The position numbers were made by a program, and so were the translations under genes. The notes under the pieces were generated by a model, which saw only the letters and a list, made by a program, of their open reading frames with translations, did no database searches and was not told the origin of the DNA. 48,226 nt of DNA, taken from the IMG/VR virus record IMGVR_UViG_3300031884_000038, positions 1 through 48,226 of that record. One strand, 5' to 3'. The stretch is from a virus. The first letter of the stretch is position 1. Every line of letters begins with the position of its first letter. Positions 3,707-25,172 of the stretch are shown in pieces.

Positions 3707-3713
3707 ATACGCT

Positions 3714-3938
3714 ATGGCCAATAAAAATTTTGATCCAAACGCTCGCTACGACAACGGACCCAGCGCCGCTGGCTCGGGCCGCATCTCGACTCCCGCGCCC
3801 ACGACCAACAGCGGTCTGGCCACGGACAACACCGTGACCAACTCGAACATCGAGTGCGGTTTCAACTGCGCGGGCAACCAGAAAAAGAACAACGGCCCCA
3901 ATGTGGCCGGTAATCCGCGCAGCTACAACAACACCTAG
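3714..3938 (+). CDS. Asn-rich small protein
   Basis: 74 residues, with very high Asn, Gly, Thr and Ser content and two Cys (CGFNCAGN near residues 48-55). No hydrophobic core is evident, so it is probably extended or disordered. Its stop abuts the stop of the convergent gene at 3939. Function unknown. Confidence 0.6.
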   Translation: MANKNFDPNARYDNGPSAAGSGRISTPAPTTNSGLATDNTVTNSNIECGFNCAGNQKKNNGPNVAGNPRSYNNT

Positions 3939-22594: not shown

Positions 22595-23414
22595 TCTGGT
22601 ACTCCTCGTAGACGCGGCTGTACAACAGGCCGATGTTGGGGATACCGAGCGATTTGGCTTCCGCCACGGAAGCCAGCTGCAAACGTCCCGGATCAGGTAC
22701 GTCCGGGACGTTGGTTTTTAAGCGGGTCAGCTCCAGGCACGCCAGGAACTGCTCCTGGCACTCCGGCGGCATTTGGCTCAGCAGCGCCGCCTTGGCCTCC
22801 TCGAACGTCATGTCTGGATTTACCTTACGGAACAGCTCGCGGCACTTTTTAGGACCCCAGCCATGAACGCCCTTGATGTTGTCCACCGGGTCGCCGGTGA
22901 TGGCCTGAACCAGCGCCACCTGGCTGGCCCGGGGCACGCCCCATTTTCGCCGGATGTAGTCGGGCGAGAGGATGGTCTTGGTGTTCAGGCAATAGTAATG
23001 GATGTTCCCTCGCTGAAGCTGTTGCAGGTCCTTGTCACCCGAGACCACGTAAACTTCGTCCGTTTTGGCGGCGCGTACTGCGGCGGTTGCCACGACACTG
23101 TCTGCCTCGTACTGGTCGTGTTCAAAGTTGACAGTGCCAAAGAGGAACGCCAGAACATCTTTAACGGCTTCCTTGGTGTCATGATATACCTTTGGTTTGG
23201 TTTCTCGGCCCTTGTTGCTGGAAATGTTTTTGGGGTCCCAGCCGAACAGGGTCCGGTCTACGTACACCCCAAGTTTGTCGATGTCGGGATTCAGCAGGAT
23301 CAGCAGTGAGCGCACCATCAGACTGACCGCGTCCAGCGGTTCCCCGCCGCTGCGCTCGGCGGCGTACCAGGACCGGGCAAAAATACTATTTGCGTCAAAG
23401 CAGGCTGTTATCAT
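22581..23414 (-). CDS. 5'-3' exonuclease (FEN / PolA exonuclease domain type)
   Basis: 277 residues. Metal-binding motifs are visible: FDAN at 6-9 (Asp7), DQYEADSVVA (about 100-109), VVSGDKDLQQL (about 123-133), and a helix-3-turn-helix GDPVDNIKGVHGWGPKKC (about 173-190). It removes RNA primers or flaps and resects DNA. The polymerase itself is not in the window. The divergent HNH gene starts only 14 nt away. Confidence 0.88.
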   Translation of the reverse strand: MITACFDANSIFARSWYAAERSGGEPLDAVSLMVRSLLILLNPDIDKLGVYVDRTLFGWDPKNISSNKGRETKPKVYHDTKEAVKDVLAFLFGTVNFEHDQYEADSVVATAAVRAAKTDEVYVVSGDKDLQQLQRGNIHYYCLNTKTILSPDYIRRKWGVPRASQVALVQAITGDPVDNIKGVHGWGPKKCRELFRKVNPDMTFEEAKAALLSQMPPECQEQFLACLELTRLKTNVPDVPDPGRLQLASVAEAKSLGIPNIGLLYSRVYEEYQTRRR

Positions 23415-23428
23415 GTGTAGGTACTGGT

Positions 23429-24232
23429 ATGAAAAAGCTAACGGTGCTTAAAAATAAATTTCCACCAGGCACTAGAACAGGAAAGCTAGTCGTCAAAGGC
23501 TACGAAAAATACGGCAAACCTCCGTATTTTTGGATGCTCGTTTGTCGCTGTGACTGCGGCAATATAATTAGGGAAAGGCCGCACAGACTCATGGCTCGAA
23601 CAGTTAAAAGCTGCGGCTGTAGTTTTGCTGGGTGCGCAACTGACAGGTTCAAGTCTACGTATCCAACAGGCTTAAAGTTCGGACAGCTTACGGTGATTGG
23701 CTATGATATTAAACCTTTTGAAACTGCGCAGCGCAATGGAAGTACAGTTGAACGACGCGTCATCTGTGTCTGCGCGTGCGGCAAGAAAAAGTCAATAGCG
23801 GTAAAATCGTTAAAATGCGGAGGAACCATCAGCTGCGGCTGTGTGGGGATCAAGAACAGGGTAGCGGCGGCAAAACGAGCATGGTCGTTACCTCCTGGTA
23901 CCGCCTCGTTTAACGCAGTCTACGGTCAAGTCAAAAGACAGGCGGTGAACCGGGGTATAGCGTGGGTTTTGACCCCGGATGAATTTAAGCGCGTCGTAGC
24001 TGAAAAATGTTTTTACTGCGGAGCGCCGCCGTCAAAGTCGTACCGTACTCGTACATCAATCGTAGATTTTGTATACAACGGTATTGATCGTCTGGATTCT
24101 GGCTCTGGCTACACTGTCAGCAACTGCGTGCCCGCGTGCAAAGTGTGCAATTATGCCAAAAACACAATGAGTGTAGACGAATTCAAAACATGGATTCGCA
24201 ACATATCAGCTCATTTTCTCGGGCTGCGCTGA
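23429..24232 (+). CDS. HNH endonuclease, probable homing nuclease
   Basis: 267 residues from ATG 23429. Two related modules (about 9-60 and 73-134), each with G-x-L-x-V-x-G-Y at the start and a C-x-C-x-C-G ... S-C-G-C end, look like DNA-recognition zinc modules. The C-terminal HNH part has CFYCGAPPS, NGIDRLDSGSGYTVSNCVPA and CKVCNYAKN. Base composition is clearly A/T-richer than its neighbours, and it is wedged between two minus-strand genes. Free-standing homing endonucleases show exactly this. No intron is evident. Confidence 0.85.
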   Translation: MKKLTVLKNKFPPGTRTGKLVVKGYEKYGKPPYFWMLVCRCDCGNIIRERPHRLMARTVKSCGCSFAGCATDRFKSTYPTGLKFGQLTVIGYDIKPFETAQRNGSTVERRVICVCACGKKKSIAVKSLKCGGTISCGCVGIKNRVAAAKRAWSLPPGTASFNAVYGQVKRQAVNRGIAWVLTPDEFKRVVAEKCFYCGAPPSKSYRTRTSIVDFVYNGIDRLDSGSGYTVSNCVPACKVCNYAKNTMSVDEFKTWIRNISAHFLGLR

Positions 24233-25172
24233 TCATCGCAATTTCGAGTTTCTCTCGTTTTCCTGCTCTACTTTTTCGTTGCGCCAGTGGACCATCTGGC
24301 GCAGGATGTCGTCGGGCACGCGGCTTAGCTCCAGCGTCAGGCCCTTGCCATCCCAGGCCAGTTCAAACAGGGTTCTCCAGCGGTCTTGGCGGCTAATATA
24401 AGCCGCCTCAACGAAAAAACTCCTGACCCAGGTCCAGCACGTGGTCGAAGGTCTTCAGGCACTCGTCGCACTTGTGTGGCACGGCGGTGTTCAGATGCGG
24501 CGTGATGCGGCGGCCCTCCTTTTCGAGAAATTTGGAATCCGCTGGCGACAGCGCCCGAAACCATTGGATCAGCTCTTCCAGCGCGTCGGGTCGGGTGTCG
24601 TTGATGGTGACGACCCGCATCAGGGTGCGCAGCAGTGTGTCAGGCACCCGGGCGCGCTCCACGGTGGGTCGGCCCACGATGGCGCGCTCGTCCTTGACCA
24701 ACAGCGGGCGCACCTTGACGACGTCCTGGACGTCCGGCAGGGTGATGACATCGAAACCGGGATAATCCGGCTCCTTGACCCCCACCGGCTCCAGCTCGTC
24801 AGGAATGGCGATGGTTTCGTCCTTCTTGGCCCCGCAGTGCGGACACACGGAGGTGTAGCGAATATGGTCGTTGGCCAGGCGCGCCCGGGACACCAGCAGG
24901 ATCAGGTTGATCTCGTCGGCGACAAAATCGTCCAGCCTGCCGCCGTTGAGGTTGCAGCAGCGCTCGAACAGGCTAAAGATCAGCTCCTCCTTGGTCAGCT
25001 TGCGGGCGTTCTCCACGAACCAGTCGTCAACTTCATTGTCCCAGGGGTAGACGGTCAATTTGCCGCCGGGCCAGGCCGTGGGGCTGGTGTAGCCGCGCGA
25101 GAGCAGGGTGATTTCCCGCTTGTACGCGTCTCGGCGCGGGACCAGTGATTTCAGGTTGGTGCGAATAGCCAT
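24233..25172 (-). CDS. gp26-like protein with +1 frameshift extension
   Basis: Proposed 312-residue product: the 24408-25172 frame is read to GAG TTT TTT, the ribosome slips +1 onto TTC, and translation continues as VEAAYISRQDRW... to the TGA at 24233-24235. The 59-codon extension has no ATG, GTG or TTG near its beginning, has a normal protein-like composition ending in a charged helix, and ends exactly against the stop of the convergent HNH gene. The shift site is preceded by a Shine-Dalgarno-like AGGAG with a 3-nt gap, as in the RF2 frameshift. Confidence 0.6.
24408..25172 (-). CDS. Baseplate hub assembly protein, T4 gp26-like
   Basis: 254 residues in frame 0. Two Cys pairs (CPHC about 108-111; CDEC about 238-241) form a zinc-binding core, and the C-terminus CDECLKTFDHVLDLGQEFFR is the ending I associate with gp26-type hub assembly proteins of large myophages. 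The spike gene follows 13 nt downstream of the start of the same minus-strand neighbourhood (25194). It lies beside spike and tube genes, fitting a role in hub assembly. Confidence 0.6.
   Translation of the reverse strand: MAIRTNLKSLVPRRDAYKREITLLSRGYTSPTAWPGGKLTVYPWDNEVDDWFVENARKLTKEELIFSLFERCCNLNGGRLDDFVADEINLILLVSRARLANDHIRYTSVCPHCGAKKDETIAIPDELEPVGVKEPDYPGFDVITLPDVQDVVKVRPLLVKDERAIVGRPTVERARVPDTLLRTLMRVVTINDTRPDALEELIQWFRALSPADSKFLEKEGRRITPHLNTAVPHKCDECLKTFDHVLDLGQEFFR
24410..24425 (-). other. Putative +1 frameshift site
   Basis: Minus-strand sequence CAGGAGTTTTTTCGTT. tRNA-Phe in the P site on TTT can re-pair with the overlapping TTC, moving the frame by +1. AGGAG lies 3 nt upstream of the slip codon, and the frame-0 stop TGA follows one codon later. 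Confidence 0.6.

Follow-up and report, generated by a model that had tools for sequence, protein, structure and literature searches.

A very probable programmed +1 frameshift in the gene of a T4 gp26-like tail assembly chaperone

Introduction

A stretch of viral DNA of 48,226 nucleotides (IMG/VR record IMGVR_UViG_3300031884_000038, hereafter the window) carries on its minus strand an ORF (25172-24408) whose 3' end reads CAG GAG TTT TTT CGT TGA. Beyond this end the +1 frame remains open for 59 codons. This raises the question of whether the two frames are separate genes, the remains of one broken gene, or one gene decoded into two products by a frameshift.

Two-product decoding is known for the tail assembly chaperones of phages. 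According to passages of a 2016 review, long-tailed phages widely conserve G/T frameshifting, T4 being the stated exception, and one archaeal myovirus, HSTV-2, very likely uses a +1 shift in its tail assembly chaperone gene (PMC5009743). For T4, gp26 and gp51 are described in part of a review as hub assembly chaperones; gp51 is said there to be essential and missing from the finished particle, with a function not yet known (PMC3004832). In the same part, work is cited that puts gp26 into the hub itself, which counts against the chaperone reading (PMC3004832).

Identity of the 0-frame gene

The 0-frame gene (24408..25172, minus strand) encodes 254 aa and was assigned to the tail assembly chaperones of the T4 gp26 family, of which it would be the short form (G). 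Its product matched PF12322 with 31.9 bits (cut-off 24.5) over model positions 41-219 of 219, and phrog_150 with E 1.2e-9, in agreement with the gp26-like identity given in the first-pass annotation. An AlphaFold model was obtained from 55 sequences (pLDDT 93), and its top match among viral models was the SP-15 homologue (E 2.4e-13). The best match in the PDB was the HK97 tail assembly chaperone 2OB9, which was weak (Foldseek E 0.37, probability 0.82). With VIA, the model was compared to 2OB9 with Z 5.5 and rmsd 4.5 over 90 residues, the next row being 5IR0, an unrelated-looking chain, with Z 5.3. The likeness of the predicted fold to the HK97 chaperone is thus suggestive, not proof.

Sequence searches with the window gene gave no match, or weak ones only (E >= 0.3), among isolated phages, and no match among plasmids or solved structures. 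PF12322 was present in 4 of 392 bacterial genomes of one phylum. The proposed link to tail assembly was supported. In SP-15 and LIS04 the gene has the tail tube gene on one side and the tape measure gene on the other; in the window an exonuclease gene follows.

Frame break and +1 extension in the window

The shift site TTT TTT CGT occupies 24411..24419 on the minus strand, with the slip codon at 24416-24414. If one base is skipped (the C at 24413), reading continues as FF-VEAAYISRQDRW...NSKLR and ends at the TGA at 24235-24233. The extension, termed the T domain (24233..24412, minus strand), comprises 59 aa and the stop, and its predicted structure contains two helices (pLDDT 88). The A-site codon at the shift is CGT and the stop of the 0 frame (24408..24410, minus strand) comes one codon later, being TGA in five of the six lineages compared below and TAA in one. 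The sequence TTTTTTCGT has no second copy on either strand of the window.

In the near-identical contig L162, the +1 frame was open from 44 nt upstream of the 0-frame stop, and its first ATG, GTG or TTG was a GTG 91 nt past this stop, within the T domain. The frame break and the extension noticed earlier were thereby confirmed, and the extension has, as had been said, no usable start in the window. A search of the extension alone against Pfam and PHROGs gave no family at E up to 10.

The T run would be a natural place for a false frame break. A sequencing error or a decayed gene, in which the run had gained a base and the extension was a fossil, fits the fact that homopolymers are where such errors fall. 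However, four further IMG/VR contigs of other data sets (L001-L004) agree with the junction letter for letter, at 99.6-100% identity over 7.6-10.8 kb, and a slip of the assembly in the T run does not explain it. Five divergent lineages have the same junction too, and the T domain is under purifying selection, which leaves this alternative a negligible probability.

Conservation and selection in the group of the window

When the window protein itself was used for searching, near-identical contigs only were obtained. The tail sheath protein retrieved seven further contigs at 41-53% identity, and the gp26-like proteins of these relatives were 49-61%, and their extensions 50-62%, identical. Six lineages were compared, namely the window (read in L162), L166, L167, L168, L169 and L170; L171 repeats L170, and L165 begins inside the extension.

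In all six lineages the gene ends with TTT TTT CGT (TTTTTTCGTTRA) and a stop, and an extension follows in the +1 frame, so the homologues keep both the frame break and the extension, which the first-pass annotation had put forward as a test. Over 15 pairs, pN/pS was 0.43 in the extension and 0.44 in the preceding gene. The differences in the extension numbered 311, 192 and 507 at +1 codon positions 1, 2 and 3, falling mostly at third positions. The pN/pS value and this codon-position pattern indicate that the extension is translated in the +1 frame.

Such translation could also come from a separate protein, if T had a start of its own past the stop of the first gene or arose by reinitiation. 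In L166 and L168 an ATG was indeed present 13 nt past the 0-frame stop. For the window, however, the first start is the GTG noted above, and its use would lose the first helix with its invariant residues. A separate gene with its own start was therefore rejected for the window, not for every relative.

Survey of the wider family

The same design was found in SP-15, LIS04, GXN1 and the uncultured phage LR756508, and phages very distant from that of the window have kept it. Loci in viral contigs were collected by alignment searches, which gave 35, then 80 of at least 600, and then 16 loci, together with one from a MAG; some loci of the 16-locus search lie in contigs already sampled. There were 138 loci with a complete 3' end, of which 136 were used; they comprised 119 distinct proteins, which fell into 88 clusters at 80%. 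L029, L035, L053 and L128, which run off the contig, were left out, as were L100 and L101, which were read from the wrong start; by eye, L100 has a +1 extension too. The group of the window is represented among the 88 by L004 alone, its other lineages being counted separately.

An extension in an alternative frame was present in 88/88 representatives, 72 in +1 and 16 in -1, with L089, L022 and L125 assigned to the +1 set by hand. Five of the 88 extensions fell short of 50 codons, in three cases because the contig ends there. Chance is an unlikely source of this arrangement, because all six lineages of the window's group and all 88 family representatives keep the alternative-frame extension. 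The shift would be a device of the whole family and no single case. These loci would provide a large natural set of +1 sites, with 72 representatives and, for one subgroup, at least 600 stretches of viral contigs.

The survey also bears on the separate-protein alternative. Between the opening of the extension frame and 36 nt past the slip codon, an in-frame ATG, GTG or TTG was found in 49 of 87 representatives, and in 10 of 12 annotated phage records T is listed as a separate small ORF, with starts that vary; in the other two, GXN1 and LIS04, it is not listed. Against this, 38 of the 87 have no start anywhere in that interval, no stop interrupts the extension frame across the slip codon in 87/87, and the slip codons are conserved, for which reinitiation has no need. 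A separate protein is accordingly rated very improbable. The joined gene is annotated in 0/12 phage records, so that T ORFs stand in these public records with arbitrary starts or no annotation.

Slip codons and proposed decoding

Codon usage at the +1 sites was counted in 70 representatives; L133, in which no FF was called, and L022, whose site is AAC TTT CTA, were left out. TTT before C or T occupied 67/70 sites, against 120/703 other Phe codons of the same genes (P 4e-42, overstated by relatedness), which agrees with the slippage on TTT-C that had been suggested. TTT was the second Phe codon at 68/70 sites, while it made up 530/706 of the remaining Phe codons of these genes (Fisher 2e-6). 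Where Arg follows the site it is CGT in 16/20 cases, compared to 28/256 elsewhere. The slip codon of L132 was moved by one codon for the TTT-C/T count and left in place for the Arg and TTT counts. As the representatives are related, P values of this kind are too strong. Three +1 classes prevailed: UUU_UGG and UUU_UAC were those of the large subgroup (at least 600 stretches), and UUU_CGU was that of the groups of SP-15 and the window. Among the -1 sites, 15/16 carry T TTT TT(C/T), a standard slippery heptamer.

Re-pairing from UUU to UUC or UUU is impossible in 3/70 sites, which are L016 (TTT TTT AGT), L042 (TTA TTT AAT) and L051 (CTA TTC AAT), and likewise at L060, a locus in a bacterial genome (TTC TTC ATT). 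Near 3710-3730, L042 and L051 read TTA TTT AAT CCC AGT and CTA TTC AAT CCC AGT, in which UUU_C is unusable; here the +1 slip could instead take place at CCC_A.

In all six lineages of the window's group, the UUU_C slip site is combined with the rare codon CGU in the A site, as in PA-X. CGU makes up 24 of the 374 Arg codons in 14 window ORFs (3.2 per thousand), and it may help the shift in this position. Most ribosomes would end at UGA and release the short form of 254 aa (G). In the others, tRNA-Phe would re-pair from UUU to UUC and decoding would resume at GUU, giving a long form (GT) with the 59-residue two-helix T domain. By analogy with lambda, G would bind the tape measure protein and T would recruit tube subunits, which would make the proportion of G to GT important. 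On the sequence evidence, it is highly probable that the gene carries a programmed +1 frameshift, by which a tail assembly chaperone of the T4 gp26 family is read out in the manner of lambda G/GT.

The same two products would arise by transcriptional slippage, if the polymerase slipped on the T6 run and some mRNAs were one U short, with the frames fused in the mRNA. The T6 run is present in the window and its five relatives, and the product would be the same. Yet the first Phe codon is TTC in 9/70 +1 representatives (e.g. TTC TTT CGT), which thus have no T6 run and still keep the +1 design, and the preference for CGT after the run would have no role in slippage of the polymerase. This alternative is considered very improbable, and slipping of the ribosome is preferred.

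Possible stimulators of the shift

The first-pass annotation had compared the site with that of RF2, on account of a Shine-Dalgarno-like AGGAG (24420..24424, minus strand; Gln-Glu codons). Its position was given correctly, as it ends 3 nt upstream of the second TTT, and in this spacing and in the proposed +1 direction the window does resemble RF2. In the +1 site of RF2 (prfB), a stop codon stands in the A site. Unlike RF2, the window has CGU and not a stop in the A site, shows no autoregulation, and has a Shine-Dalgarno-like word that is not conserved. AGGAG was found in 2/6 lineages only (the window and L166), the other four having AGGAC or AAGAC, and AGGAG, GGAG, GAGG or AGGA occurred within 20 nt upstream in only 14/71 +1 representatives. 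The AGGAG word is probably incidental. Of the earlier interpretation, the gp26-like identity, the start-less +1 extension, the TTT-C slip and the link to tail assembly were thus retained, and the RF2-like stimulator was given up.

A hairpin, GGCGGCU(6 nt)AGCCGCC (24388..24407, minus strand), starts 6 nt after the slip codon and is possible as a helper of the shift. A stem 6-7 nt past the slip codon could be drawn in 6/6 lineages, with GCGGC/GCCGC or GCCUC/GAGGC, although the loops are unequal and the 3' arms are unaligned. Folding of the 45 nt downstream gave a mean z of -1.83 against -0.12 in the window's group (P 0.0009, from six related lineages), z being weaker than -1.5 in three of the six. 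In the other groups z was -0.51, -0.51 and -0.86, against -0.15 to -0.21 (P 0.04, 0.07 and 0.04). RNA folding of three 111-nt pieces was not significant.

Relation of the T domains and of T4 gp26 and gp51

A profile made from the +1 extensions matched 15/16 of the -1 extensions at E < 0.001, and hhalign of the +1 against the -1 T sets gave E 6e-11 and probability 97. By sequence comparison, +1 and -1 extensions are one homologous domain. T of the window's group is tied to the other T domains weakly, with hhalign E 9e-5 and probability 59.5, along the core, and probability 8.9 against the -1 set. A profile built from all the others ranked the window T first among the window's ORFs (E 0.11-0.18); with the +1-only or -1-only profile it stood at noise level. 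It is taken as a T domain because its place, slip site and two-helix shape carry the argument, and a likely counterpart of the extension is T in a chaperone pair of the lambda G/GT type.

In records of cyanophages, Pelagibacter phages and a DLP6 phage, a small ORF after gp26 is named gp51 or hub assembly catalyst, and both such ORFs that were scanned matched phrog_634. When T domains were scanned (five relatives, as +1 or -1 pieces, and the cyanophage ones), three matched phrog_634 and one PF20546.

Both T4 gp26 and T4 gp51 belong to PF12322 and phrog_150, like the window protein. On the profile, gp26 ends at position 235 of 282, while gp51 reaches 280. The -1 T profile, searched through the T4 genome at E up to 1, had a single match, at the C terminus of gp51 (E 0.0019), and gave no match in the window relative G001 or in SP-15. 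In comparisons with T4 gp51, the probability was 1.3 for the +1 T profile and 29.6 for the -1 T profile. These matches identify gp51, at the level of sequence comparison, as a paralogue of gp26 that carries T at its C terminus. By homology, T4 seems to divide between a short gene, 26, and a long one, 51, what its relatives encode in one frameshifting gene; the window phage differs from T4 in having one gene with a frame break in place of two genes.

It is fairly probable that all these genes form one homologous family using the same Phe-Phe codons, with +1 shifts at UUU_C/U in most lineages, -1 shifts at U_UUU_UUY in a cyanophage-like branch and the T4 pair as the paralogues gp26 and gp51, and that the UUU_CGU motif serves bacterial and eukaryotic ribosomes. 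The family would then be one in which the direction of the shift changed in evolution.

Comparison with known frameshifts

The window's gene resembles lambda gpG/gpGT in the proposed two-product design of a tail chaperone and in the small helical other-frame extension near the 3' end, as far as the lambda system is described in the review passages (PMC5009743); its counterparts in SP-15 and LIS04 also stand before the tape measure gene. What marks the G/GT type, a conserved frame break near the 3' end and a start-less extension, was found in 6/6 lineages. It differs from lambda in that the proposed shift is +1, not -1, and that the G part belongs to the T4 gp26 family. HSTV-2, for which the same passages call a +1 shift very likely, would share this direction in a tail assembly chaperone gene (PMC5009743).

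The influenza A PA-X site, UCC_UUU_CGU, was mapped by mass spectrometry and explained by a UUU_C slip while a rare CGU occupies the A site; what this CGU contributes is left open in the part of the paper concerned (PMC3498833). The window site shares with it UUU_CGU, the rare A-site CGU and, as proposed here, the +1 slip of tRNA-Phe to UUC (PMC3498833). The differences are the bacterial ribosomes, an unrelated gene and a preceding codon of UUU or UUC. That part also names +1 frameshifts in Tsh of Listeria phages and in SPP1, which are likewise in phage tail genes, although in another gene, that of the tail protein Tsh (PMC3498833).

In the open-access literature, no frameshift of gp26/gp51 or of a T4-type chaperone was named in the titles and abstract openings among the matches listed. 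As far as the literature was searched, a +1 frameshift in a chaperone gene is known in kind, and the variant found here is new. If this reading is true, the two-form assembly chaperone trick extends to T4-type phages, which had been thought to be without such a frameshift.

Gene order and other observations

The T stop (24235-24233) lies directly beside the stop (24230-24232) of a convergent plus-strand ORF (23390-24232), so the exact abutment that had been pointed out is real. This neighbour, between T and the exonuclease gene, is an HNH or endonuclease VII-like gene (23429..24232, plus strand; phrog_1035, E 2.4e-18). It occurs at this gap, in the opposite direction, in the window, L165 and L166 and is absent there in L167-L171, in which the exonuclease gene comes directly after the extension on the same strand. 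The abutment is the border of this HNH gene insertion.

A T domain in L063 (3857-4081, plus strand) matched PF20546 (DUF6760) with E 3.7e-4 and 20.9 bits, below the 27-bit cut-off. DUF6760 is found beside PF12322 genes in bacterial contractile injection systems, and these systems may share the frameshift. It was present in 1 of 392 bacterial genomes of one phylum. In its locus there, L178 (G324), the DUF6760 match has an internal TAG and lies among remnants resembling tail or injection-system genes.

At 1040-2017 on the plus strand, the window also encodes a PurZ-like 2-aminoadenylosuccinate synthetase (phrog_1211, E 1.5e-44), and given this gene, 2-aminoadenine may stand in for adenine in this phage.
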